Shown piece by piece: positions 4,843 to 59,194 of a stretch of 64,000 bases of DNA. This stretch comes from Runella sp. MFBS21. GTDB lineage: Bacteria > Bacteroidota > Bacteroidia > Cytophagales > Spirosomataceae. Both the position numbers and the translations under genes were made by a program. How positions within the stretch are numbered: the first letter of the stretch is position 1; each line of letters opens with the position of its first letter. The DNA lies in NCBI RefSeq assembly GCF_029433105.1, contig NZ_JARNTW010000003.1, positions 1 to 64,000 on the forward strand. Reading direction: 5' to 3'. The notes under the pieces are model-generated. The model did not search any database and was not told where the DNA came from. It saw only the letters and a program-made list of their open reading frames with translations.

Positions 4843-4875
4843 AACCCCGGCAACGTTTAGAACGTTGCCGGGGTT
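4843..4875 (+). repeat. REP-like perfect palindrome 1 (also likely terminator of rlmD)
   Basis: Arms at 4843-4857 and 4861-4875 are perfect 15-base complements around a TAG loop. The left arm is AACCCCGGCAACGTT. It starts 4 bases after the rlmD stop codon. The arm fits the pattern AACCCYGSCDRYGTT shared with palindromes at 4992, 47777 and 58445. There is no U-tract, so its role as a terminator is inferred from position. Confidence 0.8.
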
Positions 4876-4884
4876 GAACGTGGG

Positions 4885-4990
4885 TTTGGCATGGCTAGAT
4901 GAAAAATATGCCGTGAAGCGCGTGCGCCCCGTAGATATGTTTCCGCATACGCACCACGTCGAAAATATGGTGGTGCTGGAGAAAAAATAA
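4885..4990 (+). pseudogene. duplicated 3' fragment of rlmD
   Basis: These 106 bases align without gaps to the true rlmD end at 4733-4838, with 7 differences by my count (about 93 percent identity). Five of the seven would be synonymous; the other two swap Val/Met. It encodes the last ~35 RlmD residues, including the FPHTHHVEN general-base block, and ends in the same stop. It has no start and no upstream domains, so it is a dead fragment. It is followed, like the real gene, by a palindrome of the same family, so the unit gene-end plus palindrome is present twice, 152 bases apart. Confidence 0.85.
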
Positions 4991-4991
4991 A

Positions 4992-5030
4992 CTAAACCCC
5001 GGCAACGTTCTAAACGTTGCCGGGGTTTAG
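4992..5030 (-). repeat. REP-like perfect palindrome 2 (likely bidirectional terminator)
   Basis: Arms at 4992-5009 and 5013-5030 are perfect 18-base complements around a CTA loop. The inner 15 bases of the left arm equal the arm of palindrome 1. It lies between the duplicated rlmD tail and the end of the leftward gene ending at 5037, only 6 bases past that stop, and probably ends its transcript. Confidence 0.8.
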
Positions 5031-5036
5031 TTTCCA

Positions 5037-7520
5037 CTACTGATACATCAACCAAGCCGTAGCTTCGCAAGCCTTATTAGCTTTGAAACGAATCCAGCGG
5101 GCTTGAAAATCTTTGCCAAAAGTATGCTCAAAGGTTTCACCAGGTTTTACCGTTACTTCTTTGTACGTCATCCAAGGACCATGACCAATCGGCTCTACTT
5201 CTATGGTGAAAGTGATTGCGTCGGTAGCTTTATGCGAAAGCTTGAGGCTTTTTTTATCATAAAAACCAATCAAATAAGGATCAGAAGGTGTATTGGCTGT
5301 CACTTGGCTATTTTTCCAAGGCCCACCTTGTCCAGTAGGTTTGCCCAATTTCCAAAGATCATCGATAGTTCCTGCCCATACTTTGGCTTTACCATCAGCC
5401 GAGGCAATGATATGATTGCTGTTGGGGGTTTGGGCATCCAAACCCGTCAAAACAAACAATCCACGGTAAGAAGCATAATCATGGATAGTCAATGAATGAG
5501 AAGCAACAGGTCTCATTTTAGCAAAGCCATCGGCATTTTCGGCGGGAAGTTCATAAAAAGTGCCGTGTACATTCATCAAGTCCCGCTCGGTAGCTACTTC
5601 CCGACAAATCCGCAAAGAAGCACTATTTGTCTTAGCCGTGAAAGCGTCGTTTCCTTTGGGTAAACGCCAGCGACGCCCTGCATCATCTACTATCAACACA
5701 GAAGCCTCATCTATGGTGACTACGTCTTTGGGAATCGCAAATTCTTTGCGGATAACCTGAGCCGTAGTAGCGTCATCTTTACGGATCAGGTTAAGCGCAC
5801 TATCCAATTCATAATAGCCGCTTTCGCTAAATTGTCCATTCACAAAATCTCCGGCCAAAACGCCCAATTGACGACGATTTTTTCCCAAACCATACAAAAG
5901 CCCCGCTTTATAATTGGTAGTATTGATATTGCTTAGTCCGTCAAATATTTTGTCTTTAGCAGTAGTAAAACGGCTTTCATCCGTGTAATTAAAATTGATA
6001 GTAGCCGTGGTAGCTTTGTTGGTTTTTACCCGAATCCACTCCCCTACTTCAGAAGCCGCAAAAGAAACAGAAGCTGCTTGTCCTGCTTTTACGGAAGCTG
6101 TTTTTAAAGATTTCCAGCTTCCTTTGCCGTTGGTATCTACTTCAAAAGTAAAAGTCACATCTTCAGCCCCCGCATTGTTTATCCAAGCGATGCGCTGCTT
6201 CCAGCCTGCAAACAAAAACGGATCAGAAGCCACATTTGCCTCTACTTTGTCATTGAGCCAAATCGCACCTTGGGCAGTATTAGGACCCAATTGATCAGGC
6301 ATATTAATAGATGTAAACCAAAGATTTGAATTTGATTGTCCTGGTCCTTCGATATTGCCTTTCGCTTTGCGTTTGTTCAAAAACTCTTTTTGGGCTGAGT
6401 CATCACAACCAAATACGAGGCCATTTTGCCAACGAGTGTAGTCGCCGATTACTTTCAAATAAGCCGAACGGGGGCGAATACCAGCGGTATTTTTAGAAGA
6501 AAATGTCTGAGGAAAACGCCAAAACATACCGTGCATAGTCATCAAGTAGTCAGGGGCTTGGGCTGTGCCAATATCTCTGATACGTGGCCATTCGGTATTC
6601 CACCCATGCGCCCCATCATAGCTATGACTTGCCTTAGGAAGCCTAAAAAATGACCATTTCCCACTATCACGTACCGCTAAAAGTACCGAGCGATGATCCC
6701 AGCCTGTAGCCCAAATAGGATCAGTTTCAGGGTTTTTGTTGCCATAAATGCCCCCTGGCCCTGTTACTTCCACAAACTGATTACGACGAACTACCTTCCA
6801 ATCTTTACCGTTCCATTCGGCCAAAACACCTGCTTCAATGTCAAATTGTTTCAATGCCTGTGGGCCAGATTCACCGTTATTGGAATACACCATTACACCT
6901 TGCCCTGAGTACAGCCCCTTTCCATGTGCACCGGGCAAAAGCATGCCGTTGTGATTGTTGGCGACGTCGTTTTCTTTTTTGTTTTTAACGTTTCCGTCTT
7001 GGTACAAAAGCTTCGATTCTAAGGTTTTGACATCTACCTCATAAAAACCTTCTTCCATAGTTCCGTAATAAATCTTGGAAGCAGGCGAAAAAAGGTGACG
7101 AGCATTGCCAGTATGACGCCCCGGCATCTGAGTATAAGGAATCGTCCTGACATTTCCGTTGCTTCCAATAGCATAAGGGCCAATAAAAAGTTGATTGCTT
7201 TCGGCATGAACCATGCGATTGGCAGGCGTCCCGCCGATGCTTTCCGAACGAATGGTTTTGTGCAAATCAGGAGTGATTTCGTAAAGCTTATCCGAAGACC
7301 CAAAGGGTAAATGCGGCCCATAGGTAATGACCCAAAGTTTTCCTGCCCAAGGTACTACCGCGCCCGTGCCGCATTCTCCTTCGTTGTTATAATAAGCAAG
7401 GTGTGGATAGATGCCGCTGATTTGTTGGTAGGATGATTTGGGCTGGGCTTGGGCCAAGCCACAAGCCAAAACGGCCGTTGCCATTCCTACCGTAAGAGAT
7501 TTGAAGTCTAATGTGTACAT
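5037..7520 (-). CDS. secreted protein of unknown function, family member with duplicated C-terminal module
   Basis: 827 residues with a signal peptide (about 1-25, cleavage near AQAQ). I do not recognise a named domain. It is clearly related to the neighbouring gene at 7533-8984: both share PWAxxLWxITY, a SIxGTxANR-like block, IGPY, LAEWxGxxWK and xATGWD-xxSVL. The region running from an L-M-x-x-H-G-x-F motif to a SDP...W-I-R beta module occurs twice here: about 305-515 (LMTMHGMF, SDPFLF, EWIRVK) and about 610-827 (LMNVHGTF, SDPYLI, RWIRFK). Regular WAG/TDDLW-like motifs suggest a beta-propeller plus beta-sandwich, which is inference. It is last in the sigma-FecR-SusC-SusD transcription unit, so a role in handling the ligand of that uptake system is likely. 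Confidence 0.8.
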   Translation of the reverse strand: MYTLDFKSLTVGMATAVLACGLAQAQPKSSYQQISGIYPHLAYYNNEGECGTGAVVPWAGKLWVITYGPHLPFGSSDKLYEITPDLHKTIRSESIGGTPANRMVHAESNQLFIGPYAIGSNGNVRTIPYTQMPGRHTGNARHLFSPASKIYYGTMEEGFYEVDVKTLESKLLYQDGNVKNKKENDVANNHNGMLLPGAHGKGLYSGQGVMVYSNNGESGPQALKQFDIEAGVLAEWNGKDWKVVRRNQFVEVTGPGGIYGNKNPETDPIWATGWDHRSVLLAVRDSGKWSFFRLPKASHSYDGAHGWNTEWPRIRDIGTAQAPDYLMTMHGMFWRFPQTFSSKNTAGIRPRSAYLKVIGDYTRWQNGLVFGCDDSAQKEFLNKRKAKGNIEGPGQSNSNLWFTSINMPDQLGPNTAQGAIWLNDKVEANVASDPFLFAGWKQRIAWINNAGAEDVTFTFEVDTNGKGSWKSLKTASVKAGQAASVSFAASEVGEWIRVKTNKATTATINFNYTDESRFTTAKDKIFDGLSNINTTNYKAGLLYGLGKNRRQLGVLAGDFVNGQFSESGYYELDSALNLIRKDDATTAQVIRKEFAIPKDVVTIDEASVLIVDDAGRRWRLPKGNDAFTAKTNSASLRICREVATERDLMNVHGTFYELPAENADGFAKMRPVASHSLTIHDYASYRGLFVLTGLDAQTPNSNHIIASADGKAKVWAGTIDDLWKLGKPTGQGGPWKNSQVTANTPSDPYLIGFYDKKSLKLSHKATDAITFTIEVEPIGHGPWMTYKEVTVKPGETFEHTFGKDFQARWIRFKANKACEATAWLMYQ

Positions 7521-7532
7521 ATTAAAGATGAG

Positions 7533-8984
7533 TTATTTAAAAGTAAAATAAGCGGTCCCAACACAATCTTTATCGGCCACTAATCTTATCCATTTAGGAT
7601 TAAAGGATTCTGGGAAATCGATACTTTTACTTTCTTTTGGATTGACTGTGATGGTCTGGAATTTTCGATAATTTCCGTCTCCAACGATATCCGCTTCGAG
7701 GTCAAATTTGACTGAAATGCTGCTATTGTGCCACAAATTCAGCGATTTGTTGTTGAAGTTAAAAGTAAAAAATGGATCCGAAGGTTGTCCTTTTTTGATT
7801 TCCGAATCTAGCCACACACCGCCTTCTCCCTGCAATTTGCCAAAACTCCACAGGTCGTCTGTTTTGCCAAACCATAGACCCGCTTGAGGTTGACCCGCCA
7901 AAGGATTGTTGTCGATGCCACTATTAAAACGCATCGGAGTAGCTTGATTTCCCCCTAATACGAGCATTCCACGCCAACTGCAAAAATCAGGAATGATACG
8001 AAGGTGGGAAGAAATAGGCTTGATAGCCCAAAGCTGATTGCCGTAAGTGTGGTATCCAATTTCGTAAAACAAACCGTGGCAATCCATCAAGGCGCGTTCG
8101 GTCTCTACTTCGCGGATTCGCATCCATTCGGTACAACTCGTTTCGTCAAAAGTACGGCTGCCTTTGGGCAGTCGGTAGCGCTTCCATTCTTTAGTAGAAG
8201 GGAAATAGACATTCATCAACACCGAGGCTTTGTCCCAGCCCGTTGCAATCATAGGTTGACCAAAAGAGCCAGCACTCCATACTTCCGTAAAAGCCGTTTT
8301 TTCAAGGATTTTCCAAGTGTTTCCGTCCCATTCGGCCAGCCGCCCCGCCGACCAAGAGCCATTGTAGTCTTTTTCGTTGTAGCTATTGTTGGTTACTACC
8401 ACTCTTCCGTGTTTGGTAAAACCCGACTTAAAATGCGGTTTTGACCCGACAGGTTCGTCCAGTTCTTTCATAAGATTGAAAAGCTGTTTTGTTTCTAAGG
8501 TAGTCACATCCGTTTCAAAAAACTCGCCTTCCATCGACAAAAAATAAACCTTTTTGGTGGGTTCTGTCAAGTGGGCCATAGTAGCAGCCAAGCGGTATTT
8601 TTTTACTCCTTCAATGAGCCTCACATTGCCGAGCGTATCAACCACATACGGCCCAATAATCAACTGATGCGTAGAAGCATGAATGAAACGATTGGCATAC
8701 GTCCCTACGATACTCTCGGCTCGTTTTTTCAGCTCCATTTTATCATTGATTTCATACAATCCTGTCCCTGAACCCGTTGGCGTCATGTGGGCTACATAAG
8801 TAATAATCCACAATCGATTGGCCCAAGGCATCAGGCCGCCCGTACCTGCCTCAGTACGAGGGCTATGATTGGCAACCATCGCCAAGTTTGGAAAGACTCC
8901 ACTTACCGAAGGCGCATTTTGGGCGTAAGATTGCAAGGCACAAAACAGCCCCACAACAAAATATTTTAAAAAATTTTGTTTCAT
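7533..8984 (-). CDS. secreted protein of unknown function, paralogue of the 5037-7520 product
   Basis: 483 residues from the ATG at 8984; a TTG extension to 9068 would overlap the preceding susD and place charged residues before the signal peptide, so it was rejected. Signal peptide about 1-22 (ends SYAQ). It has the same block order as its neighbour: GTGGLMPWANRLW, ESIVGTYANR, LIIGPY, FFETDVTTLE, LAEWDG, IATGWD, RLPKGS, ALMDCHGLF, WFGKTDDLWSFGK, then a single terminal SDPFF...KWIRL beta module. No catalytic signature was recognised. Gaps of 12 bases to the downstream gene and 80 to susD place it in the same operon; a strong hairpin lies in the 80-base gap. Confidence 0.82.
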   Translation of the reverse strand: MKQNFLKYFVVGLFCALQSYAQNAPSVSGVFPNLAMVANHSPRTEAGTGGLMPWANRLWIITYVAHMTPTGSGTGLYEINDKMELKKRAESIVGTYANRFIHASTHQLIIGPYVVDTLGNVRLIEGVKKYRLAATMAHLTEPTKKVYFLSMEGEFFETDVTTLETKQLFNLMKELDEPVGSKPHFKSGFTKHGRVVVTNNSYNEKDYNGSWSAGRLAEWDGNTWKILEKTAFTEVWSAGSFGQPMIATGWDKASVLMNVYFPSTKEWKRYRLPKGSRTFDETSCTEWMRIREVETERALMDCHGLFYEIGYHTYGNQLWAIKPISSHLRIIPDFCSWRGMLVLGGNQATPMRFNSGIDNNPLAGQPQAGLWFGKTDDLWSFGKLQGEGGVWLDSEIKKGQPSDPFFTFNFNNKSLNLWHNSSISVKFDLEADIVGDGNYRKFQTITVNPKESKSIDFPESFNPKWIRLVADKDCVGTAYFTFK

Positions 8985-9020
8985 TTTCTTAAACGATATG
9001 GAGAAGGAATAGATAATTAA

Positions 9021-9053
9021 AGCGAGCCTGCTAAAAGCAGAGGCAGGCTCGCT
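9021..9053 (-). terminator. intercistronic hairpin after susD
   Basis: Perfect 11-base stem (9021-9031 with 9043-9053) and 11-base loop. On the leftward transcript it is followed by TTTAATTAT, a poor U-tract. It may lower readthrough into the two secreted-protein genes or protect the susCD end of the mRNA from decay. Confidence 0.55.
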
Positions 9054-9064
9054 AAAAAGCAAAA

Positions 9065-10777
9065 TCAATAGCCGTCGTTTTGCTTCATGTTGGAATTGAT
9101 TTGAATCTCAGCCGTAGGAATAGGCCATAAATACTGCCGGTCGTTCCAAGTAGTAGGTACTAGATTTTTGATAAGACCCGTTTTTTCCATTTCACTAAAG
9201 TCAGGAGTACCGTCTTCATCAATTCTAGGCGTACCCGGAAAAAACCAGAGATTTTTGTCCACCACTTTACTACGTAAATCTACGGGGTCGAGCATGCCAT
9301 AAATAGGGCGATTGAGGACTTTGCCCGCAATTCGCCAACGCACAATATCCATATAGCGAAGCCCTTCGAAGGCCAACTCCATACGGCGCTCCATGCGCAA
9401 TTCTCGCCGTAGTTCGGCTTGGTTGGTAGTGGTGATAGCAGGGTAAGATGTAGTAGCCGTAAGCGCCACTTTGTAGGCTCTCGCTCTTACTGAGTTGATA
9501 GCATCCAATACTGATTTATCTATTTGATTTTGTTCAATTTTGGCCTCTGCATACATCAACAATACATCGGCATAACGAACGATAATCTGCTCAGGTTCTA
9601 TCAAACGGCCATTGAGCAACCAAGAATCATCGACTCCTTTTTTCCAAATCAACCCATTGAAAGAAGCAAATTGAGCATTGGCGCGGTTGTCGTTGTTGGT
9701 GACTTTGGTATTGGTACTTAGGCGGGTAACTTGCAGTGCATTGGGATGTGGATCATATATAAATCCTAAGTGAGGCTGCCCAAACTCAACAATGGTAGCC
9801 GTGCAACGAGGGTCGCGGTTTTTGAAGGGGTTACGTGGTTCATAAAGCGGCGACTTATCAATGGTTTTACCATCGGTACATAGATACGAACAAAACAAAT
9901 CCCATGAAGGGTTGGCTGCGGCAAAGCCGCCCGAATTACGGCTAATGATATCGGACGTAACTCCTGTAGTTACTTTCAATTCGAGCGAACGAGGCAATGA
10001 AAAGATAACCTCTCTTGAATTTTTGGTGCTTTGCAAAAACAAATTGGCATAGTCAGAATGCAAAACGTATTGATTCAAGTCCATGCAAGCTTTGGCGGCG
10101 TCGCTAGCTATTGCGTAATCTTTTTCGTAGAGAGCAAAACGCGCTTTCAGAGCCATTGCGACACCTTTGGTAGCACGCTTTACAGCCGAAGCAGCATAAC
10201 TCGTCGGCAAATTGGCAATAGCATAATCAAAATCTTCGTAGATTTTGGCACTCACCGTTTTCTTATCGGTACGGCCTTTGGTATAGGCATCTTCGATACT
10301 GATAACCTCATCACTATACACTACATCGCCAAACTTATTAACCAATTTGGCATATTGACCTGCCCGATGCAGACGAGCTTCAGCTAAGTATACATCCAAC
10401 TTTGCTTGGTTTACTTTAGCCTTGGTTTCAGCGCTATTCAAAGCCGCAATCGCTCTGTTAGCACGAGCAATGGCCTTATAAGAGTTGCGCCAAAGTGTGG
10501 TCGAAAAAGCCCATTGGCTCGTCACTGTGCCAGATTTGATAGGCGTTAGCGTTTGACGATAAAAACCATCATCCGAAAGATAATTGACACCTGTACCGTC
10601 TTCGTCCCATTGCCAAAAATCAATGCGATAGAGGTCATTGAGAGCTAGTTGTATTTCGGTTTCGTTGGAATACCACTTTTCAGCCGACGGCTCCGCAAGT
10701 GGATAAAGGTCAAGGGAATTTTGGCAGGAAGCTAGCAATAGTAAGCTAAGGGCTGCGATATATATATATTTTTTCAT
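9065..10777 (-). CDS. SusD/RagB family surface lipoprotein
   Basis: 570 residues with lipoprotein signal and lipobox L-A-S-C (Cys about 18). The N-terminal SusD helical region is recognisable (ALNDLYRIDFW, YKAIARANRAI) and so is the C-terminal part (RYADVLLMYAEA, INSVRARAY, RRMELAFEGLRYMDIVRW, LWPIPTAEI), the typical ending of PF07980/PF14322 proteins. SusD proteins form the lid that binds ligand over the SusC barrel at the outer membrane. It follows susC by 19 bases in the same operon. The ligand is not identifiable; no dedicated glycosidase lies inside the operon. Confidence 0.92.
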   Translation of the reverse strand: MKKYIYIAALSLLLLASCQNSLDLYPLAEPSAEKWYSNETEIQLALNDLYRIDFWQWDEDGTGVNYLSDDGFYRQTLTPIKSGTVTSQWAFSTTLWRNSYKAIARANRAIAALNSAETKAKVNQAKLDVYLAEARLHRAGQYAKLVNKFGDVVYSDEVISIEDAYTKGRTDKKTVSAKIYEDFDYAIANLPTSYAASAVKRATKGVAMALKARFALYEKDYAIASDAAKACMDLNQYVLHSDYANLFLQSTKNSREVIFSLPRSLELKVTTGVTSDIISRNSGGFAAANPSWDLFCSYLCTDGKTIDKSPLYEPRNPFKNRDPRCTATIVEFGQPHLGFIYDPHPNALQVTRLSTNTKVTNNDNRANAQFASFNGLIWKKGVDDSWLLNGRLIEPEQIIVRYADVLLMYAEAKIEQNQIDKSVLDAINSVRARAYKVALTATTSYPAITTTNQAELRRELRMERRMELAFEGLRYMDIVRWRIAGKVLNRPIYGMLDPVDLRSKVVDKNLWFFPGTPRIDEDGTPDFSEMEKTGLIKNLVPTTWNDRQYLWPIPTAEIQINSNMKQNDGY

Positions 10778-10796
10778 TGCAAATCAAAGGGTTACA

Positions 10797-13700
10797 TTAA
10801 AAACCAATCGTAAATCCACCCAATACGGTTGTCACTATCCCAAAACCTTCGGGGTCCCAACCTTTAGGGTATTTGTTGAGGGTAAACACGTCGGTAGCAT
10901 TGAGATATACCCGAATGTTGTTTGAGAGAATCTTACGCGAAATTCGCTGCGGAATGGTATAGCCTAAGGTGATGTTTTTCAAACGGAAATAACCTCCATT
11001 AAACAACCAAAAATCAGACATGGCACGGTTTAGTCCCTTGTTGGTCTCTGTAAATCTTGGGTATTTGGCAGCTAAATTTTGTTCAGTTGTATTGTTAGCA
11101 CTCCAAGTATTTCCGTCTAAATATACAGGGAATACGCCCCAGTTTTCGGCATTATAATCAGTATAAGGCAATAGCGAGGTGTTTTGGTAACCTATGCCTT
11201 GGAAAGTTACTCCCAAATCAAACCCACTATAATCTAGCTTAATATTGCCGCCATACATCCATTGTGGTTGGGAATTACCTAACAATACACGGTCATACTC
11301 TGGCGAAATTTTGCCATCAGGTACACCGTTAGGGCCGCTGATGTCGGTGTATTTCATATCACCTACTTTTACGTTGGTGTTGATTTTGGGAGAATTATTG
11401 ACATCTTCTTGGGTTTGGTAAATTCCTTCTGAACGATAACCGTACCACTCGTCAAATTGACTTCCCAACTTTTTGATACGGTCGCCTAAAAATTCAGTTC
11501 CACCCAAATCTCCCATGATAGATTTAAACTGAGACAAGTTGAAAGAAGCCGAGTAACGTAGCTTGCCGATGTTATCGGTCCAACCCAAATCCAAATCAAT
11601 GCCTTTGGTAGTCATGATTCCCGTATTTTGGTTAGGATTTTCGAATCCTACGAAAATCGGAATCTGTAATGCCAACAACATATCTTTGGTTTGTTTGTAA
11701 TACACATCGGTGGTGAAGCGCAAACGATTTTTCAAGAAATAAGCATCCAACCCCAAATCGGTAGAGGTGGTTTTTTCCCATGAAATATCCTGAATAGCAT
11801 ACTGCACTTGCGCAGCTGTTTGTTGAGCTACGGCTACGTTGTTTTGGTAAAACAGTGCATTGCTAAAGTTCATGATACCTACCGACGGGTAGTTTCCGAT
11901 ACGTTCGTTGCCAAGATTCCCCCAAGATGCCCGCAGCTTCATAAACGACACCACGTTTTGTCTTTTGAAGAAATCTTCTTCGCTCACTACCCAGCCTGCC
12001 GATATCGACGGGAAAGTACCCCAACGGTAGTTGGCATTGAAGCGCGACGAACCGTCGCGGCGTACATTGGCCTGAATCAAGTATTTATCTTTGAAACTAT
12101 ACGTCAAACGTCCAAAATAAGAGCGATAAGCCGTTTCGAAGGCCGACCCAAAGTTGTCTCTAAAAGCAGCGGGGCCTTGGTTGAGATAAGGATAAGTATC
12201 AAACAAATATTGGTCGCGCGAAGCCCCCATCGACTCCCCTTTGAAGTAATAGTTTTCGTAACCAAGCAAAGCTGTAAAATCATGATTACCAATGGTTTTT
12301 AGGTAATTACCCAAAAACTGCGTGGTAATGCTGTAGTTAGTTGTGCGGTTTTCGTCCAAACGAGTAGTGATACCACCTCCAATCAGCGATACGATGTATT
12401 GATTAGGGTCGTTGGCGGCATATACATCTACTTGACGATTGAAGCGTTTTTGAACGTTAAAATCAAAAATAGGTGCAATGATTCCTGAGAACTTCAATCC
12501 TTCAATTGGCTTTAAATCAAGGGCTAAACGACCCCCAATTTGATTATAATTGAGGCGATCAGTTCCTCCATATTTAATTTTAGCATACACATTTTCACCC
12601 GCTTTGCCGTCGGCAATCCGCCCATCGGCCCAGATAGCAGGATAAATAGGTGATGAAATCAGTATACGTTGTAACGGAGTAGTTGAAGGAGGGTTGTTTC
12701 TAGAATCACCACCAATCAGACTCATATCTGTCTGACTATTACTTGCTGTGGGAGACAGTGAGTTGGTTCTCTTAAAGTTAAAATCGACGGTTCCGCCGAT
12801 GAATTTATTAATAGTAAAATCGTTGTTTGAGCGAACAAAAATCCGATTGTAGTTTTTATTGTCATAGAAGCCACCCACTTTCTCAAAACGAACTGAGGCA
12901 TTTGATTTTACAAATTTTGAGCCACCCACCACGCTAATACTGTGAGCTTCTCTAGGCGCTATTTTATTGAGGGTCAACGCCATCCAGTCAGTATCGGGAT
13001 ATTTATCAGGGTCTGACAGGTGTTTTTGATTATAGTCTGTCAACAAATCTTGGCTGAAGGTGGGAAAGCGATTGGCACCGTTTCCGGCATCATTCCAACG
13101 AAGTTCGTTGACAAGCTCCATATAGCGTTGCGACCGCATATAGTCGGGAAGCTGCGTAGGTGTATCAAAGCCGTTTTCGTAACTATATTGAATAGAAGCT
13201 TGGTCGGTTTTGGCGCGCTTGGTCGTAATCAAAATTACCCCTGCTGCTGCTCGCGATCCGTAAATAGAGGCCGAGGCTGCATCTTTCAATACGGTAAGGT
13301 TTTCAATATCATTGGGGTTTACTTGGTTAACATCACTCACAGGTACACCATCTACAATCACCAGCGGGTCAGAGCTACCAATCGTCGTAATCCCCCGAAT
13401 CCGAATCGTGGCGCCGCCCATCGCACCATTGGCACCACTTCGTGACACCATTACGCCCGACATTGCCCCTTGCAGTGCTTGTGCTACCTGCGTTTCTTTG
13501 CGCTCCTTAAACATCTCCGCGTTGATGGTGGACACGGCACCCGTGAGGTCTTTTTTTCTTTGAACGCCATAACCTACCACCACCACTTCTTCGAGTGATT
13601 TGGTATCGGGCTTGAGCGAAATATTCAGGGAAGTTTGATTGGCGATACTTACTTCTTGACTTAAATATCCCACAAAAGAAAAAACAAGGATGATATTGTC

Positions 13701-14252: not shown

Positions 14253-14292
14253 ACATTTACTTGTTTTTTGATTGGACAAATTAGAAAACACT

Positions 14293-14360: not shown

Positions 14361-14366
14361 TTTTTT

Positions 14367-15377: not shown

Positions 15378-15400
15378 TTCTGTATGGGTGTGTTTATAGT

Positions 15401-21741: not shown

Positions 21742-21786
21742 TTTTGGTTGGTTTGCCCTGAAATATTCAAGTCAAACCAACCAAAA
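21742..21786 (+). terminator. hairpin after korA (terminator or attenuator)
   Basis: Perfect 14-base stem (21742-21755 with 21773-21786) and a 17-base loop, four bases after the korA stop at 21735 on the coding strand side. Only a short A/T stretch follows, so it may be a partial terminator lowering readthrough to the small membrane gene and korB. Confidence 0.55.
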
Positions 21787-23166: not shown

Positions 23167-23180
23167 CGTATTATTCCCTA

Positions 23181-23218
23181 CAAAAAAGCCTTCTAATGTA
23201 CATTAGAAGGCTTTTTTG
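23181..23218. terminator. bidirectional rho-independent terminator
   Basis: Perfect 18-base stem (23181-23198 with 23201-23218), with A6/T6 at the outer ends so that a U-tract forms in either direction. It lies between the convergent korB and small lipoprotein genes, touching the latter's stop codon at 23219. Confidence 0.9.
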
Positions 23219-23695
23219 TTAGTGACACACTCTCACAAATTTACGCTCGTTGATTTCTCCTTCTTTTCCAAACATAATGCTAAGTATCAATTCTCGGGTA
23301 GTGAGGCTACGCACTTTAACATTTTTATACCACGTAGCTCCGCCCAAAATTTGCTCATCCAGTTTGACCTCTTTTCCGTCAAAATTATACCGAGTGGCTA
23401 GCTGAGCTGGTGAAGAAGGCGCCACTCCATTGCTTCCCGACAACGCATTTCTAACTTTTACTTCCCCATTAGAAGTAAATTCTACAAAATAAGAATCAGC
23501 AGCGGCTTTTTTCCAAGTAGTATCTGTAATAGGTGGGCAACAACCTCCCAAATAACGAAACTCCGTCAATGTCCATTTTCCCACGAGTGTGGGCTGATCT
23601 GAAACACAGCTTTCAAGGCTCAACAACTCCTCGCTTGAAGATTTGCATTGCATCCCAATCAGGGCAATTAATCCGTATAAAATCAGCTTTTTCAT
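23219..23695 (-). CDS. small lipoprotein, lipocalin-like
   Basis: 158 residues from the ATG at 23695 (an ATG three codons upstream at 23704 is also possible). Lipoprotein signal with lipobox G-M-Q-C. The body starts with LVGKWTLTEFRYLGG, a pattern common in lipocalin-like/DUF4488-type Bacteroidota lipoproteins, followed by alternating beta-strand sequence and a double cysteine in GGCCPP. Function unknown. It is transcribed leftward, away from the enzyme gene that ends at 23759; the 63-base gap would allow co-transcription with the phosphatase and ppk1. Confidence 0.75.
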   Translation of the reverse strand: MKKLILYGLIALIGMQCKSSSEELLSLESCVSDQPTLVGKWTLTEFRYLGGCCPPITDTTWKKAAADSYFVEFTSNGEVKVRNALSGSNGVAPSSPAQLATRYNFDGKEVKLDEQILGGATWYKNVKVRSLTTRELILSIMFGKEGEINERKFVRVCH

Positions 23696-36895: not shown

Positions 36896-36940
36896 AATTT
36901 TGCTTAGATACTTAAGTAATTGTACAAAAGATGTAGCTAT

Positions 36941-36976
36941 GAATAAAAACGGGCGAAAATTCGCCCGTTTTTATTC
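36941..36976 (-). terminator. strong terminator after the second susCD pair
   Basis: Perfect 17-base arms (36941-36957 and 36960-36976) around an AA loop, with the A/T-rich outer segment giving a U-tract in both directions. It lies 12 bases past the susD-type stop at 36989. Confidence 0.9.
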
Positions 36977-36988
36977 ATAAATTATCGG

Positions 36989-47776: not shown

Positions 47777-47809
47777 AACCCTGCCGATGTTCGGAACATC
47801 GGCAGGGTT
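47777..47809. repeat. REP-like perfect palindrome 3 between convergent genes
   Basis: Arms at 47777-47791 and 47795-47809 are perfect 15-base complements, loop CGG, left arm AACCCTGCCGATGTT. The arm fits the same AACCCYGSCDRYGTT pattern as the palindromes after rlmD and beside the RAYT gene. It lies 7 bases past the Gfo/Idh/MocA stop and ends 9 bases before the leftward SDR stop, so it can act as a bidirectional terminator. Confidence 0.8.
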
Positions 47810-49674: not shown

Positions 49675-49779
49675 TGCACCTGAATTCATTCACAAAATAC
49701 TAATTTCCCAAAACCTTTTTGACGTTTTAATCGTACTTAAAGGGTAGGTAGTTTTTTGTATTTTTTCCTAATAATTCGA

Positions 49780-50571: not shown

Positions 50572-50586
50572 TACGGCCGTCATTTA

Positions 50587-50625
50587 ATTACTTCTGCCGA
50601 GCCTAAAAACCTCGACAGGAGTAAT
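50587..50625. terminator. hairpin between convergent genes
   Basis: 15-base arms (50587-50601 with 50611-50625) with one mismatch and one G-U pair and a 9-base loop. Located between the DUF3050 stop (50571) and the leftward stop at 50639. It probably ends transcription in both directions, though U-tracts are short. Confidence 0.6.
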
Positions 50626-50638
50626 ACTACCAATTAAC

Positions 50639-51489: not shown

Positions 51490-51504
51490 GGTTTTGGTAA
51501 GGTT

Positions 51505-52683: not shown

Positions 52684-52689
52684 ACTGGT

Positions 52690-53247
52690 TTATAGCGTTA
52701 TTGACCAAAGGCCTACTGCTTTCAATTTTCGTTTTAGAATTTCACGAGCTCTTGCCAATTGTGACTTAGAGGTACCTTCCGCAATCCCCAGGATTTTAGC
52801 GATTTCGGGGTGCGTATATCCGTCAATATAATACATATTTGCCACCATTCGATAGCCGTTTGGCATGGCATTTATTATCTCCAAAATTTCCTCTTGCGAA
52901 AGCTTATCATATACTTGGGGAGATACGCTCCAATCATCCAATATCGTTTCATAATCGACCTGTTCGTTTTCTCGGCGATGCTGACGATAATAATCAATAG
53001 CCGTGCGGATGACCGTAGACTTTACCCAATATTCTACAGACTCTACATTTTTGAGATTTTCAATATTGAGAAAAATCTTAATAAAAGCTTCCTGAAAAAT
53101 ATCTTCTGCCTCTGCTATGGTACGTGCATATCGACGACAAACCCCCATCAAACGCCCCTTGTACAAGTTGTAAAAGGCATTTTGAGCCTGACGGTCGTTG
53201 CGCTGACAAGCTTTTACCAATTCTATTTCTTTTGCAGAAGCGGCCAA
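52690..53247 (-). CDS. ECF-type RNA polymerase sigma factor (second)
   Basis: 185 residues. Region 2 at about 15-85 (FYNLYKGRLMGVCRRYARTIAEAEDIFQEAF in part, NVESVEYWVKSTVIRTAIDYYR in part), region 4 at about 115-180 (AMPNGYRMVANMYYIDGYTHPEIAKILGI in part, KSQLARAREILKRKL). It groups with sigma-70 ECF factors paired with membrane anti-sigma proteins, matching the next gene. It starts in a 143-base gap with the PepSY-like lipoprotein gene end. Confidence 0.9.
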   Translation of the reverse strand: MAASAKEIELVKACQRNDRQAQNAFYNLYKGRLMGVCRRYARTIAEAEDIFQEAFIKIFLNIENLKNVESVEYWVKSTVIRTAIDYYRQHRRENEQVDYETILDDWSVSPQVYDKLSQEEILEIINAMPNGYRMVANMYYIDGYTHPEIAKILGIAEGTSKSQLARAREILKRKLKAVGLWSITL

Positions 53248-53390
53248 AATTTTATAATTTGAAATGAGTGGATTTATAGCTATTTTTTAATGAACAAAGA
53301 GTATCCAAATGAGTAGGAGGCTGGTAAAAGTCGGTGAACGAATAAACCAAAAATTGCCTCAAATAATAATCACAAGTTCCCAACCCCCAC

Positions 53391-54551
53391 TTACATTTTT
53401 TTGTACTGAAATATCCACTGTCCGCCTCCATCAAAAACTACCACATTGTCTTCGCCATTTACCCTTATTTCAGCCACATATTTTGTGGGTTTAGACTCTC
53501 CTATTAGTTGCAGTTTACGTCCTTTTGACCATTGCCAATTGCTCCATTTAGCATCTATGTATTGTCGAGCCGAGGCTGGAAGTTCAGCGGCTGTGATATA
53601 ACTTGCTTTAGTAGTCGATAATTGATTAACTCGCACATCTAAACTCATCCAAAAGGTTTCTTGTAGCGTATTTGTGGCTCGCATTTTCCATTTGTTTATT
53701 TTACCAAATTGCTTTTCTCTGACGCTATAGTTCCAAGTCCAGTTGGTTGTTTGCGAGGCTAATCCTTCACTCAGTTGGGATGGTGTTTCGTTTTGGGTGG
53801 CTATCTCGTATCCAATTTCTTTTTCGAGCGGCATTATCCATTCTTTTATTTGGCCGTTGACATCAAGCAGGACTTCAGTCGTAATCAATGAGTTTTTGTC
53901 GCGTACTGTATTTGTCACAATAATCCTAGTCGTTTTGTCTTCATATACATACACAGACACATTGGCACTTGCATAGTTGTGGGTTTCAAAAAATTGCTTT
54001 ACAACCGAAGGAATACGAGTATCGTTTTTGAGTTGCTCTACCGTAGTCAGAAAAAGAGCCGTTACCCTACCCGTAATATCAGCAGTAGTGTTACTTTCCA
54101 AAACATTATTAGCATTGAAGCGAAGGCGACGACGCAGTCCATCTTTCTGCTCTACTTCCACCAAGTGTCCTATTTTGGTTTGGGAATTTTGTAAAATCAC
54201 CGCCGCTTCTTCTATAAAACCCTCTGGAACAATACGATACACTTCATCTTTAACGACCTGTGGCAATGTTTGCGGGCTACCTACTAATTTGTTTTCAAAA
54301 AGTATCTCGCCCTCATTGTCAATCAACATAAAGCTACGATGAGTAGCGACCGGAAAATCTGCTTGCCAGACATCTTTACTTATACGCGATATCAACACAT
54401 CAGCCATGCCAGGATTAGATACCCTAATCACCTCTACCACTGCTTGCGGCACACCCTCATCATTGGGAGCTGCAGTGCTTTTATCTACAACCGAATCGCA
54501 GGATGCTACTCCTAATAAAAAAAACAGGTATATATATCGCCGAAAAGACAT
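53391..54551 (-). CDS. lipoprotein with PepSY-like/BLIP-type C-terminal domain
   Basis: 386 residues from ATG 54551 (MSFRRYIYLFFLLGVASC); lipobox V-A-S-C (Cys about 18). The last ~80 residues (LPASARQYIDAKWSNWQWSKG, AEIRVNGEDNVVVFDGGGQW in part) match the PepSY-like putative beta-lactamase-inhibitor-type repeat (PF11396). Earlier segments at ~90-170 and ~200-320 may be divergent copies of the same fold, but I could not confirm this. Function unknown; periplasmic or surface-located. Confidence 0.72.
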   Translation of the reverse strand: MSFRRYIYLFFLLGVASCDSVVDKSTAAPNDEGVPQAVVEVIRVSNPGMADVLISRISKDVWQADFPVATHRSFMLIDNEGEILFENKLVGSPQTLPQVVKDEVYRIVPEGFIEEAAVILQNSQTKIGHLVEVEQKDGLRRRLRFNANNVLESNTTADITGRVTALFLTTVEQLKNDTRIPSVVKQFFETHNYASANVSVYVYEDKTTRIIVTNTVRDKNSLITTEVLLDVNGQIKEWIMPLEKEIGYEIATQNETPSQLSEGLASQTTNWTWNYSVREKQFGKINKWKMRATNTLQETFWMSLDVRVNQLSTTKASYITAAELPASARQYIDAKWSNWQWSKGRKLQLIGESKPTKYVAEIRVNGEDNVVVFDGGGQWIFQYKKM

Positions 54552-54666
54552 GCCAGATATGAATCTAAAGGTATACATCAACAAAGACGACACAACAGAG
54601 AAAGGGGTTGTATCACGATTAAATTTTTATCATTCACCCTCAGTTTTTGGGATATTATCACAAACA

Positions 54667-54696
54667 AACGGGGCGACTCCGTAGAATCGCCCCGTT
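54667..54696 (-). terminator. terminator after the RRM protein gene
   Basis: Stem of AACGGGGCGA (54667-54676) with TCGCCCCGTT (54687-54696), ten-base loop. On the leftward strand it continues into TTTGTTTG. It is 24 bases past the RRM-protein stop and also lies ahead of the leftward PepSY-like gene. Confidence 0.75.
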
Positions 54697-54719
54697 ACCA
54701 AAATCCATATTTTTTAGGA

Positions 54720-55073
54720 TTACCAGCGCTTTTTGAAATCATTGTCACGACGGAATCCACCTCCGCCACCGCCACGGTTTCCACCGTCACGATTTCCACC
54801 GCCAAATCCTCCACCAGTGCGAGGACGCTCTTCGCGTGGACGTGCTTCGTTTACGACAAGTACTTTCCCCATAAAATCAAAATCGTTCAATTGTGAAATG
54901 GCTTGTTGAGCCTCATCGTCATTAGGCATCTCGACAAATGCGAAACCCCGGCTTTTACCCGTAAATTTGTCCATGATAATACGGGCCGAAGATACTTCTC
55001 CAAATTCCTCGAATAACTCGCGTAATTCGTCATCGTTCGCTTTGAACGGGACGTTTGCTACATAAATGTTCAT
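54720..55073 (-). CDS. RNA-binding protein with one RRM domain and glycine-rich tail
   Basis: 117 residues. RRM with RNP-2 IYVANV (about 3-8) and RNP-1 KSRGFAFVEM (about 40-49). The C-terminal third is Gly/Arg-rich (GGGFGGGNRDGGNRGGGG in part). Such glycine-rich RRM proteins are common in Bacteroidota and cyanobacteria and are often linked to cold response or RNA chaperone roles, which is inferred from families. The transcript likely carries a ~115-base leader. Confidence 0.93.
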   Translation of the reverse strand: MNIYVANVPFKANDDELRELFEEFGEVSSARIIMDKFTGKSRGFAFVEMPNDDEAQQAISQLNDFDFMGKVLVVNEARPREERPRTGGGFGGGNRDGGNRGGGGGGFRRDNDFKKRW

Positions 55074-55098
55074 TGTGCTTTGATTTGTAAAACGTTTG

Positions 55099-55230
55099 GT
55101 GCGCTACGTACGGCTTTCGATTTAAACTCCTTCCGAATGGATGACAGATACGCAGCAACGCGGTCGAGAGAAATAGAGAAAGTACCAATAGCGCACAAAT
55201 ATAAAAACTAATTTTTTGATTTTTAACAAG
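55099..55230 (-). promoter_or_regulatory. promoter and structured leader of the RRM protein gene
   Basis: An exact Bacteroidota -7 element TATATTTG lies at 55196-55203 (leftward strand), with TTG 23 bases upstream at 55227-55229, a longer spacing than usual. The leader to the ATG at 55073 is about 115 bases. An 8-base perfect inverted pair, GTGCGCTA at 55099-55106 and TAGCGCAC at 55189-55196, could close the leader into one large stem-loop. Confidence 0.6.
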
Positions 55231-55303
55231 CTAAATAAGGATTTTAGAGTTTTTTTAACCTTGCACGCAACGCAATTCCAACTTTTTACGTACAGGTATA
55301 CTG

Positions 55304-55397
55304 AGAATGTAAGGCTATTATTGTCTACATTCTTTATAATTGAGGAACGCACAGGTGGAAGTCGAGGGGGGCAATTGCCCCCCTCGACTTTTTTTAG
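55304..55397 (+). ncRNA. candidate small RNA or attenuated leader upstream of the M16 protease
   Basis: On the rightward strand, a stem (55304-55311 with 55326-55333, perfect 8 bases) precedes a perfect 16-base-arm palindrome (55359-55390, arms 55359-55374 and 55375-55390) followed by T7. This is a standard terminator placed ~65 bases before the protease ATG with no gene ahead of it on that strand. It implies either a short independent RNA or a leader in which termination is regulated. No promoter could be placed with confidence. Confidence 0.45.
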
Positions 55398-55460
55398 TCG
55401 GATGTTTTGGATTTAGAGCATCAGAATATTAATTTTCCCTCTCTATCAAACATATCATCC

Positions 55461-58403
55461 ATGAAAACTTTTGTATTCTTTGCGCTGTCCATGACCGCGC
55501 TATGGTTTCAGTCTCTGGCTCAATCCAAGGCTTATGAATGGCAAACAGCCACAGCCGCAGGTTATGAATATAAGTACGTCAGCAATGACCCACTCCAAGC
55601 TCGTTTTTATACCCTTAAAAATGGCCTTACCGTCATTTTGAGTGTCAATAAAAAAGAGCCCCGTATCTTCACTTTTATCGCTACTCGTGCAGGTTCCAAC
55701 ACCGACCCGCGCACCAATACAGGCTTGGCCCACTATTTAGAGCATATGTTGTTTAAAGGGACAAATCGTTTTGGTTCATTGGACTGGGAAAAAGAAAAAC
55801 CTTTGCTTGACCAAATCGATGCTCTCTATGAGAAATACAACAAAACTACCGACACCACTGAGCGCAAAAAAATCTATGCAGAAATAGACCGCGTGTCAGG
55901 ACAAGCAGCCAAATTTGCAATAGCCAATGAATACGACAAAATGATGTCGTCCATGGGGGCGCAAGGAACCAACGCCTTCACTTCTCACGAAGTAACCGCC
56001 TACATGGAAGATCTTCCAGCCAATGCTATCGACCGCTATTTAGCCGTTCAGGCCGAACGCTTCCGTCAGCCGGTGTTACGGATTTTTCACACGGAGCTAG
56101 AAGCTGTTTATGAAGAAAAAAACCGCTCTCTCGACAATGACCCCTGGAAAGTCCAAGAGAAACTCTACGAAGCACTGTTTCCGACTCATAATTATGGACA
56201 ACAAACTACCATAGGGACTATCGAACACCTCAAAAACCCGTCGTTGGTAGAGATTCGTAATTATTATAACAATTATTATGTACCCAACAACATGGCCGTC
56301 ATTTTTGCGGGGGATTTCAACCCTGGCGAGGTCATCAAAAAAATAGATGCAGCACTGGGATACATGCAGCCTAAACCTGTCAAAGAATATAATCCTGCTC
56401 CCGAAGCTCCACTTACGAGCATCCAAGTACGTGAGGTGTACGGGCCAACTCCCGAAAACATACGTCTTGGCTTTAGATTTCCTTCCATGGTAAATGATTT
56501 AAAAGGAATGGCCGTTTCGACAATTTGTGATGAATTGATGTCAAACAGCGGAGCGGGCCTCATCGACCTCAATCTCAACAAACAACAGAAGATTTTAGGA
56601 GGTAGCTCTACTATCGATTACCTCAAAGACTATTCGGTATGGATTCTATCGGGGCGCCCTAAACAAGGACAATCTTTAGATGAAGTGAAGAATTTGTTAC
56701 TAGGAGAAGTCGAAAAGCTCAAAAAAGGAGACTTTGATGAATCGGTCATTCGCTCTATTGTAAACAACTACAAACGTAATGCTATTCAGCAGCTCGAAAG
56801 CAATTATAGCCGCGTAAGCCCCTTGCTCGAAGCATTTATTAGCTCGGGAGGGAACAATTGGCTCAACTATTCGAGCCGCTTAGACGCCATGTCGGCCGTA
56901 ACGAAAGCTGATATCATGACCTTTGCCAATACTTATTTTAAAGACAATTATGCCGTAGTTTATAAACACAAAGGCCCTGACAAAAACATTGTTAAGGTCG
57001 ACAAACCCAACATCACGCCTGTCGAGGTCAATCGCGAAGCCCAATCTCCTTTTTTACAAAAAGTCAATGCCATGCAAATGGACGAAATCAAACCCGTATG
57101 GCTCGATTATCAAAAAGATTTTAAGAAAAGTAAAATAGGAAATGCCGAAGTTTTGTATGTTCAAAATACTGATAATGAGCTTTTCCGCTTAGGATATCGC
57201 TTTCCAATGGGTACTTATCATAGTAAATTACTCCCGATTGCCACCCAATATTTACAATTCCTGAGTACCGACAAATACAATGCCGAACAAATCAGTAAGG
57301 AGTTTTTTAATCTAGCCTGTAATTACAGCATTTCTTCTTCTGGCGAATACACTACGGTGCGGCTCTCTGGTTTGCAGGAAAATTTTTCTAAGGGAGTAAA
57401 ATTATTAGAACATCTTATCCGAAATTGTAAATCTAATGACGAGGCACTCGAACAACTAAAAGGGAGATTGGCCAAAGCCCGTGCAGATGCAAAACTCAAC
57501 AAAGGTGCCATCATGCAAGGGTTGATGAGCTATGCTCAGTATGGTTCTCAAAATCCTTATAACAATCAACTGACAAATGAGGAATTAAAAAATCTTACAT
57601 CGGCACAGTTGCTTGAAGTACTACATAGCTTGTTTGATTTTCCCCACCAAATCATTTATTATGGGCCTCTATCTTTGACGGCACTTTCTCAAGAAATTAA
57701 AGTAAGCCACCCACTTGCAGCAAAATTCAAAGCGATTCCAGCAAAGAAAGATTTCAAACAACTTGACCAAACTGCCACCCAAGTGCTTTTTGCAGATTAT
57801 GACATGGTACAAGCCGAAATCTCTTGGATTCGCAATACCGCTCAGTATAATCCAGTACTTGCCCCTACTGTCGAGCTGTTCAACAACTATTTTGGCGGTG
57901 GCATGGCTTCCATTGTATTTCAAACCCTTCGCGAATCCAAAGCTTTGGCTTATTCGACTTATGGGTATTATGGTACTCCTCAGAAAAAAGGCCAAAAATA
58001 TACTCTCACAGGCTATATTGGCAGCCAAGCCGATAAGCTCAATGAGGCGATCGCGGGCATGAACGAATTGCTCAATCAACTGCCAGAATCAGAGAAATCG
58101 CTCGAAACGGCTAAAATAAACATGAAAAAAACCTTGCAAACCGACCGTATTTTGCAAGACGGCATTATCTACAATTATCTCAGTGCGCAAGAAAAAGGGA
58201 TAAGTAGCGATGAACGAAAACTCATCTATGACCAAATAGATAAGCTCACTTTCAAAGACTTAAAACAATTTGCTGATACAAATTTGGCTAACAAGCCTTA
58301 TACTTATTGTATAGTAGCCTCTGAAAAAAGAGTCAAAGAAAGCGACTTAGCCAAGTATGGTACCGTCAAAAAACTTTCTTTAGAAGAAATTTTTGGGTAT
58401 TAA
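55461..58403 (+). CDS. secreted M16 family zinc metalloprotease (pitrilysin-like)
   Basis: 980 residues from ATG 55461 (signal peptide about 1-21, ends SLAQ); a TTG extension to 55407 is rejected. Inverted zinc motif H91-x-x-E94-H95 in HYLEHMLFKG and the distal Glu in ELEAVYEEKNRSL. The domain plan is two M16 halves (the second, ~500-950, has inactive-type M16C sequence with GGMASIVFQTLRESKALAYS in part). These enzymes degrade peptides; the N-terminal signal makes this one periplasmic or outer-membrane-facing. It is preceded by a terminator-bearing leader. Confidence 0.93.
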   Translation: MKTFVFFALSMTALWFQSLAQSKAYEWQTATAAGYEYKYVSNDPLQARFYTLKNGLTVILSVNKKEPRIFTFIATRAGSNTDPRTNTGLAHYLEHMLFKGTNRFGSLDWEKEKPLLDQIDALYEKYNKTTDTTERKKIYAEIDRVSGQAAKFAIANEYDKMMSSMGAQGTNAFTSHEVTAYMEDLPANAIDRYLAVQAERFRQPVLRIFHTELEAVYEEKNRSLDNDPWKVQEKLYEALFPTHNYGQQTTIGTIEHLKNPSLVEIRNYYNNYYVPNNMAVIFAGDFNPGEVIKKIDAALGYMQPKPVKEYNPAPEAPLTSIQVREVYGPTPENIRLGFRFPSMVNDLKGMAVSTICDELMSNSGAGLIDLNLNKQQKILGGSSTIDYLKDYSVWILSGRPKQGQSLDEVKNLLLGEVEKLKKGDFDESVIRSIVNNYKRNAIQQLESNYSRVSPLLEAFISSGGNNWLNYSSRLDAMSAVTKADIMTFANTYFKDNYAVVYKHKGPDKNIVKVDKPNITPVEVNREAQSPFLQKVNAMQMDEIKPVWLDYQKDFKKSKIGNAEVLYVQNTDNELFRLGYRFPMGTYHSKLLPIATQYLQFLSTDKYNAEQISKEFFNLACNYSISSSGEYTTVRLSGLQENFSKGVKLLEHLIRNCKSNDEALEQLKGRLAKARADAKLNKGAIMQGLMSYAQYGSQNPYNNQLTNEELKNLTSAQLLEVLHSLFDFPHQIIYYGPLSLTALSQEIKVSHPLAAKFKAIPAKKDFKQLDQTATQVLFADYDMVQAEISWIRNTAQYNPVLAPTVELFNNYFGGGMASIVFQTLRESKALAYSTYGYYGTPQKKGQKYTLTGYIGSQADKLNEAIAGMNELLNQLPESEKSLETAKINMKKTLQTDRILQDGIIYNYLSAQEKGISSDERKLIYDQIDKLTFKDLKQFADTNLANKPYTYCIVASEKRVKESDLAKYGTVKKLSLEEIFGY

Positions 58404-58418
58404 AATCCGACGAAGATA

Positions 58419-58433
58419 ACGCAGGTAGGGTTT
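58419..58433 (+). repeat. half-copy of the REP-like arm
   Basis: AACGCAGGTAGGGTT differs at one base from the left arm AACGCAGGCAGGGTT of the palindrome at 58445-58476, 26 bases away. It is a direct-repeat remnant beside the RAYT gene. Confidence 0.55.
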
Positions 58434-58444
58434 TGTTTTTGGGT

Positions 58445-58476
58445 AACGCAGGCAGGGTTTGAACCCTGCCTGCGTT
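58445..58476 (-). repeat. REP-like perfect palindrome 4, 12 bases from the RAYT gene
   Basis: Arms at 58445-58459 and 58462-58476, perfect 15-base complements, loop TG, right arm AACCCTGCCTGCGTT fitting AACCCYGSCDRYGTT. It sits 12 bases past the RAYT stop (58488) and beyond the M16 protease end (58403), so it can terminate both. A half-copy lies at 58419, and a matching arm flanks the other side of the RAYT gene at 59180. Confidence 0.85.
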
Positions 58477-58487
58477 GTTGCTTGCGT

Positions 58488-59117
58488 TTATTCATACTCT
58501 GTTATCAAATGCTTTATTGCATTTTCATCTACTTGGCTTTGATGAAATAACAGATAAGCTTCTTTTCCGCCAAACCATTCTAATACATACTCTCTCTCCA
58601 ACTTTGTAGGCGCATTACTCAATACACTTCGATAAGAAGAATGAGGATAAATACTAAAATCGTTCACTAATCTGTGTTTTCTGGGATTGTGATGAATATA
58701 CCATATCAATCTTGTAAAATACGCTTCTGAATCTACCACAATCCTCCGAAAAGGCTCTTCAAAAAGCCCTCCTCTACGATTATTTATTTTATTTAGGGCT
58801 TGTGCATAGCCATTAAAAAGTTTTGAAAACTGATTGCTGATACAAAAAGAAGCGCCTCTGTCATTCATACGTCCAGAAGATTTTGTGCCCAACCTTGATA
58901 AGATTTCATCTTCAGAGCGAGTTTTTATCAAAAAATGGAAATGATTTTTCAATAAACAATAGGCATAGGTTTCGCCAATGGGTGCGATATAATACGCGTA
59001 TTTTTGAAGAAAATAGCTGTAATTATATTCTTGCTTAAAAATAGTTTCTCCATTAATACCTCGATTGTAAATATGATAATAAGTCTCAGTCTCTAACTTT
59101 GGTATATTAGCTTTCAT
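58488..59117 (-). mobile_element. REP-associated tyrosine transposase (RAYT, IS200/Y1_Tnp-like)
   Basis: 209 residues with the TnpA_REP plan: YYHIYNRGINGETIF near the start (about 13-27), the HUH metal site H59-F-H61 in NHFHFLIK, and the catalytic tyrosine region WYIHHNP (Tyr140). No transposase terminal inverted repeats or partner genes were found, as expected for RAYTs, which act on REP palindromes elsewhere. Palindrome arms of the same family flank it on both sides (58445-58476 and 59162-59194). All key residues are present, so it may be active. Confidence 0.88.
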
Positions 59118-59161
59118 GCTTTTTGACGTTAGGACGTAATCTATTTTTTACAAGTCACAAT

Positions 59162-59194
59162 GCAGGGTTCAAACCCTCAAACCCTGCCTGCGTT
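59162..59194 (-). repeat. REP-like arm and partial hairpin upstream of the RAYT gene
   Basis: AACCCTGCCTGCGTT at 59180-59194 equals the right arm of the palindrome at 58462-58476. Its partner is shortened: GCAGGGTT (59162-59169) pairs with 8 of its bases around a 10-base loop, and an extra AACCCT lies inside at 59172-59177. It is a decayed copy in the RAYT upstream region. Confidence 0.7.

Follow-up and report, generated by a model that had tools for sequence, protein, structure and literature searches.

The first 64,000 nt of contig NZ_JARNTW010000003.1 of Runella sp. MFBS21, referred to here as the window, contain four palindromes with related arms and a gene for a predicted REP-associated Y1/HUH transposase (RAYT; REP, repetitive extragenic palindrome). 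The question raised by this arrangement is whether the palindromes are the REPs of this RAYT or hairpins of another origin beside which it happens to lie. From our analyses, a Bacteroidota variety of REP/RAYT system appears probable, in which a clade of RAYTs recognises a hairpin of 33 bp and each lineage has its own arm words. Sequence comparison establishes the structure of the family, a statistical tie to the RAYT clade, placement at 3' gene ends, sites common to two species, and fast change inside these sites. The cognate link between palindromes and RAYT, already proposed in an earlier reading of the letters of the window (the sequence-only reading), is well supported by enrichment at RAYT flanks, by like words on both sides, by divergence of words along with the RAYTs, and by copy numbers. 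The features of the window are:

4733..4840, plus strand: 3' tail of open reading frame (ORF) 3426-4838 including its stop codon, copied between the two palindromes below (101 of 108 positions)
4843..4875, no strand: family palindrome AACCCCGGCAACGTT-TAG-AACGTTGCCGGGGTT, 4 nt past the stop of ORF 3426-4838
4876..4994, plus strand: duplicated gene tail separating palindromes 4843-4875 and 4989-5033
4989..5033, no strand: second palindrome with the same 15-nt word, arms lengthened to 21 bp, loop CTA
47777..47809, no strand: family palindrome AACCCTGCCGATGTT-CGG-AACATCGGCAGGGTT, convergent ORFs on either side
58419..58433, no strand: single-arm remnant AACGCAGGTAGGGTT, one mismatch
58445..58476, no strand: palindrome AACGCAGGCAGGGTT-TG-AACCCTGCCTGCGTT, 11 nt past the RAYT stop codon
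58488..59117, minus strand: RAYT, 209 aa, NHFH at 58-61 and Y140
59160..59194, no strand: palindrome located 5' of the RAYT gene, degenerate but with an exact arm at 59180-59194

Three of the four full palindromes had been placed exactly in the sequence-only reading, but the one given as 4992-5030 is longer, as listed; both arm remnants are present. All four palindromes are surrounded by convergent predicted ORFs, which agrees with the proposed location at gene ends. In the genome taken as that of Runella zeae, a palindrome with one arm mismatch is found at the same place as 47777-47809, and the site orthologous to 4876..4994 has two palindromes with a different intervening sequence. Compared to the consensus of the sequence-only reading, palindrome 58445-58476 is inside out, with AACGC at the outer and GGGTT at the inner end. 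The fixed parts of the arm are AAC and GTT, at outer and inner ends alike, and a central G.C. Fixed letters thus exist as had been stated, but they are not confined to a recognised outer sequence, and four similar half-sites fit better.

The gene at 58488-59117 is a RAYT, as judged from its HUH motif, its single tyrosine, and its similarity to TnpA-REP. The claim of an intact active site was confirmed (HFH at 59-61 and Tyr140). PDB 4ER8, E. coli TnpA-REP, was found with the RAYT profile at E 3.6e-7. Across 48 relatives, no variation occurs at N58, H59, H61, Y140, N144, and P145. NCBIfam model NF047646 (REP_Tyr_transpos) recognises all 48 relatives at E 0.001; the window protein obtains 45.5 bits, under the model cut-off of 80. 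At E 0.01, no Pfam family matched the window protein, and Pfam Y1_Tnp picked up 19 of the 48 relatives. Since 29 of 48 are missed by this profile, surveys based on Y1_Tnp may undercount RAYTs of Bacteroidota; proteins for the survey of Quentin et al. (2018, PMC6006769) were gathered, according to its description of the search, with Y1_Tnp at 0.01, a profile that misses the window protein. The window genome has one RAYT copy, which shares 92% identity with its counterpart in R. zeae DSM 19591. The HUH and Tyr core is common to the IS200/IS605 TnpA proteins, from which the window RAYT differs in being single-copy, in its low similarity to the IS200 profile, and in being flanked by dispersed palindromes. 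As had been proposed, family members lie on both sides, 58445-58476 on one and the degenerate 59160-59194 on the other; R. zeae also has copies on both sides, the one on the 5' side being near-complete (L171:2407-2438).

To be a REP family, the palindromes should be present in numbers beyond chance. A scan of the 7.88-Mb window genome with the motif AACNNNGNCNNNGTT-N0-30-AACNNNGNCNNNGTT gave 53 matches and the reversed control none, so that the family is not a handful of chance copies. The number indicates scale only, because overlapping and direct pairs are counted in and variants exist outside the motif. Depending on the rule applied, the 23 fetched stretches, the window among them, contain 45 or 46 palindromes. 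The motif leaves pairing free at seven of the 15 arm positions, and in 40 motif-matching 33-mers of the window genome 272 of 280 pairings not demanded by it are complementary (253 of 259 in 37 33-mers of R. zeae). Among 45 palindromes, 27 distinct arms occur, and CAA/TTG is the commonest loop (22/45). The arm is also related to itself: in 40 distinct arms flanking RAYTs, position i of the 15-mer pairs with position 16-i at 5.15 of 7 places, versus 1.81 (sd 0.18) in shuffles. In Runella, this self-symmetry is owed mostly to the fixed part of the arm; of the three free pairs, 1.07 match within an arm. The predicted hairpin unit consists of two inverted 15-nt quasi-palindromic units and a 3-nt loop, with no GTAG tag, and the 33-mer may represent two small quasi-palindromes facing each other, which would resemble a REPIN in compressed form.

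RAYT matches at E 1e-6 were obtained in 100 of 200 family genomes, for which the 30 best loci, 13 further Runella loci, and two others were fetched. The survey of flanks comprised 89 loci of RAYT relatives, made up of the best matches in family genomes, the closest database matches, and the Runella loci; excluded were L065, which comes from the genome of L036, and L206, whose locus is not that of a RAYT. Within 300 bp of the RAYT, 69 of the 89 loci have a palindrome on one side or more; both sides could be read in 85 loci, and 41 of these have palindromes on each. Palindrome density is 2.47/kb within this distance versus 0.077/kb elsewhere in the same loci, and 66 of 129 flanking palindromes, against 6 of 28 in the background, are exactly 33 bp long. 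With two flanks considered alike at no more than two mismatches in 11, the sides agree in 38 of 41 RAYTs; when flanks of different RAYTs are paired, 139 of 820 agree. Arm words vary between RAYTs, examples being AACGCAGGCAGGGTT in Runella, AAACCTGACAGGTTT in Flavobacterium, AACTCTCTCAGGGTT in Gelidibacter, and AGACCTCACAGGTTT in Polaribacter, and their distance grows with RAYT protein distance (Mantel r 0.386, p 0.0001, for 46 of 53 RAYTs left once near-copies were removed). Palindromes on both sides were found for none of seven PF01797 matches in the window genome; these flanks were measured from the Pfam match with one locus cut short, and in a check by ORF, an ORF with both motifs was detected by pattern for two of the seven, the statement on all seven resting on cruder windows.

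Copy numbers point in the same direction. The window motif is contained in 58 of the 200 family genomes. For 29 of the 200, the window genome left out, the best RAYT locus had been fetched. In 11 of these, a palindrome fitting the motif accompanies the RAYT, and the median is 52 copies; in the other 18, where the RAYT has a different palindrome or none, it is 0 (p 9e-6; p 0.010 when collapsed by genus, one genus being represented in both groups). Four Runella genomes gave no match to the window RAYT at E 1e-6, and these harbor 0, 2, 7, and 11 copies; equal numbers in relatives lacking the RAYT were thus not observed, and with the sensitive profile weak matches appear in three of the four and none in the fourth.

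Within Runella, a second word revealed a more complex picture. TTCCCGAAAG is present in 64, 62, and 33 copies in genomes G075, G111, and G095, in which the window motif occurs 2, 0, and 1 times, whereas the window motif reaches 53 copies in the window genome and 64 in R. zeae, with 2 and 1 of TTCCCGAAAG. Over 13 Runella genomes, the counts of the two families are anticorrelated (Spearman -0.79, p 0.001). Palindromes with TTCCCGAAAG flank a RAYT in G075, G031, G077, and G017. Another word, ACCTGACAGGT, was found in all eight genomes whose RAYT carries it, in 1-10 copies, some of which are the flanks of the RAYT alone, and in none of four Runella and related control genomes.

A number of observations weigh against this interpretation. 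Genomes and loci are mutually related, and the p-values are hence optimistic. No palindrome lies within 300 bp in 20 of the 89 RAYT loci, some of them at contig ends. In G111 and G095, two RAYT loci each were viewed, of four and seven profile matches, and these are not flanked by TTCCCGAAAG; dependence of the copies on a RAYT need not be strict, therefore. The RAYT flanked by TTCCCGAAAG is in pieces in G031 and in G075, two pieces in the latter with its 64 copies. G094 has 23 motif copies, yet its best RAYT bears another word. Two Gelidibacter genomes have 6 and 8 copies of ACCTGACAGGT, and the RAYT seen there bears a different word. In several genomes of the Flavobacteria type, the word of the RAYT amounts to 1-3 copies, partly the RAYT's own flanks. 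Finally, a clean 33-bp insertion opposite an empty site was found in neither direction between the window genome and R. zeae.

The comparison with R. zeae indicated fixed places with changing insides. For the 31 clusters of the window genome, 24 syntenic R. zeae intervals were available in the fetched stretches and two were added by flank search. A palindrome is present in all 26, in some cases with mismatches. One of the 27 comparable clusters, L151, is missing from R. zeae in the form of an unpolarised indel of 143 bp; synteny or contigs break at the other four. Conversely, seven of seven R. zeae sites examined are occupied in the window genome, with L190 (identical to L189), L182, and L183 left out. 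Most sites look old and fixed in the present genomes. Active transposition was considered and set aside, since apart from this one indel the search for empty sites both ways came upon sites that are occupied or rearranged, and the suggestion that the RAYT mobilises the palindromes is not supported for the present. Changes inside the sites are frequent. The strict motif being required on the side of the window genome, 24 palindromes were matched; four of them are tandem copies whose pairing between the species is uncertain. Of the 24, 7 have identical loops, 7 have loops in reverse complement, and 10 have loops that differ otherwise, and the arms are unchanged in 15. Arm words can be switched with pairing preserved, from AACGTGGGCGAGG to AACGTCGGGGAGG for example, and an entire array is changed from AACGCAGGCAGCGTT to AACGCAGGGAGCGTT between the two species.

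In one case, a breakpoint of an interspecies rearrangement coincides with a family palindrome (L145:5738 and L155:9202 versus L213, R. zeae C25:26120). The two flanks of the R. zeae palindrome are found on separate contigs of the window genome, C12 and C31, where each adjoins a palindrome with that word. Mobile cargo between palindromes was considered and dismissed, since the DNA beside the C12 and C31 ends codes for ordinary, chromosomal-looking proteins (ORFs judged by eye), which suggests a rearrangement breakpoint. At another site, a small R. zeae gene is located between palindromes of the same word (L176:4856-5575) where the window genome has one palindrome and an arm (L149:8894-8926), a difference corresponding to gene gain or loss between repeats.

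Neighboring palindromes are often separated by copies of gene tails. In seven of eight such clusters of the window genome, the intervening DNA duplicates sequence extending into the 3' part of the neighboring ORF. Besides the copy in the window (101/108), identities are 94/96 in L157 and 177/192 in L159; copies in L142, L154, L156, and L161 (21/23 bases) are weaker. In R. zeae, such copies are clear in two of seven clusters, and at one array the two species captured different gene tails. In G075, the 3' tail of the interrupted, two-piece RAYT itself is repeated along with its TTCCCGAAAG palindromes (L194:1300-2260). From the copies in several clusters and in G075, local amplification of a gene tail plus hairpin is seen to recur in more than one family. 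A tandem palindrome array with an 11-nt loop and a period of about 60-120 bp was also noted in both species (L160:11221-11804 and L174:11757-11903).

The location of the palindromes would be accounted for if they were maintained by the host, as bidirectional terminators or hairpins at mRNA ends, with the RAYT an incidental neighbor. Based on mechanically predicted ORFs, 29 of 45 palindromes have a 3' gene end no more than 30 nt away (0.12 of random intergenic spots), and three have a 5' end at such a distance (0.15 of random spots); the 3' count for R. zeae is 18 of 40. In the fetched stretches, 29 of 46 palindromes lie between convergent ORFs, spacers that contribute 6.8 kb to a total of 49.5 kb of intergenic DNA. 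Few arm differences between species (none in 15/24) and the persistence of copies in Runella genomes without a close RAYT are also consistent with such a function. But T-tracts, defined as at least six T in the next eight nt, follow on 5 of 90 sides, and on 2 of 80 in R. zeae; the palindromes are not canonical terminators therefore, and the idea that the element also serves as terminator, which gene-end placement would fit, is not supported. Nor would the shared AAC...G.C...GTT, the fixed length of 33 bp, and the agreement of words at the two flanks of a RAYT be expected of terminators, and competing families in sister species also count against this role. A plain terminator family is insufficient to explain these features, and we regard this explanation as rather improbable, though a terminator role may have been added onto a REP/RAYT origin. 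With 40 of 46 palindromes outside predicted ORFs, and some of the six inside in doubtful ORFs, the Runella palindromes are dispersed, extragenic, and multi-copy, as are canonical REPs.

Replication alone could also create and keep palindromes by quasi-palindrome correction and template switching, RAYTs merely landing at hairpins. Loop flips at 7 of 24 palindromes, compensated word changes, site-wide identical words, and tandem gene tails would all be expected from fold-back copying. This leaves unexplained why half-sites are common to the whole genome, why the same word flanks a RAYT, and why words track RAYT distance, and we consider it rather improbable too. A further possibility is that the RAYT has been domesticated as an editor of hairpins in place rather than a mover, acting on a nested palindrome of four half-sites, flipping it and equalising arms and neighbors; we think this unlikely as well, albeit conceivable. 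If it were true, adjacent gene tails would be repeatedly captured and tandemly amplified, and sites at gene ends would change their sequence, not their place.

For the REP/RAYT system considered probable here, a mechanism can be outlined. E. coli TnpA-REP binds the REP hairpin in single-stranded DNA and cuts and rejoins it at its foot. By analogy, the HUH/Tyr site of the Runella RAYT would bind the single-stranded, lagging-strand hairpin and cut and rejoin at the foot, as is reported for TnpA-REP in PMC6006769. Earlier rounds of cutting would have seeded copies, tolerated chiefly at gene ends. The hairpins would now be reworked in place by loop flips, equalising of arms, and local tandem copies with a gene tail, the agent being either RAYT cutting and resealing or fold-back copying (template switching) at the replication fork.

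Like REPINs, the Runella palindromes form inverted dimers and local clusters. The symmetric, near-perfect 33-mer with its quasi-palindromic arms differs from GTAG-tagged REPs and looks like a compressed inverted pair. GT[AG]G was not detected directly adjacent to any of 90 feet in the window genome or 79 in R. zeae, nor within 6 nt of 183 feet of RAYT-flanking palindromes of 31-35 bp. REPs, BIMEs, and REPINs with the tag, known from Enterobacteria and Pseudomonas, are, according to PMC3733652, extragenic palindromes of 20-40 bp flanking a RAYT, a likeness to the Runella family. The system appears to be of the same kind as subclass 2.6 of TnpA-Y1 (RAYT group 5), which is mostly from Bacteroidetes according to the treatment of this subclass in PMC6006769. 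Its genes are described there as bordered by atypical structures that lack GT[AG]G, were found by manual inspection, and have genomic copies, and untagged structures beside RAYTs are thus already published. The median HuH-Y distance of 82 in the same description compares to 81 in the window RAYT, and a pair of serines follows the core in both (SS 160-161). The motifs listed for the subclass are NH[LIV]H, W[Q], and YIH[QN]NP, from which the window protein differs in having NHFH, YIHHNP, and, by eye, no W, and the structures are termed weaker in that account, whereas the Runella hairpins are near-perfect over 33 bp. A description of the palindrome anatomy, of words specific to each RAYT, of fixed sites with flipping loops, or of tail copies was not found in the open-licence literature searched.

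Other palindromes were noticed during these analyses. RAYT relatives in L057-L061 and L063 are flanked by perfect palindromes of about 60-90 bp at the stop codon, with cores such as ACGCCATATCT. In the window, further strong palindromes without the family arm are located at 21742-21786, 23180-23219, 36938-36979, and 55359-55390; their arms are 16-21 bp long and three are perfect. Part of them resemble ordinary terminator hairpins with A-run, stem, and T-run. An Rfam scan of the window at gathering scores gave no matches.

Judging from the portions of the literature searched, research on RAYTs and REPs has been centred on GTAG-tagged repeats of Proteobacteria. Many Bacteroidota RAYTs have hairpin words of their own that can be read, which allows tests of recognition, of co-divergence, and of whether these proteins move, keep, or edit their hairpins. 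The two close Runella species agree in their sites and differ by flipped loops, swapped words, and the gene tails captured; they constitute a natural experiment on the effects of such hairpins on a chromosome.

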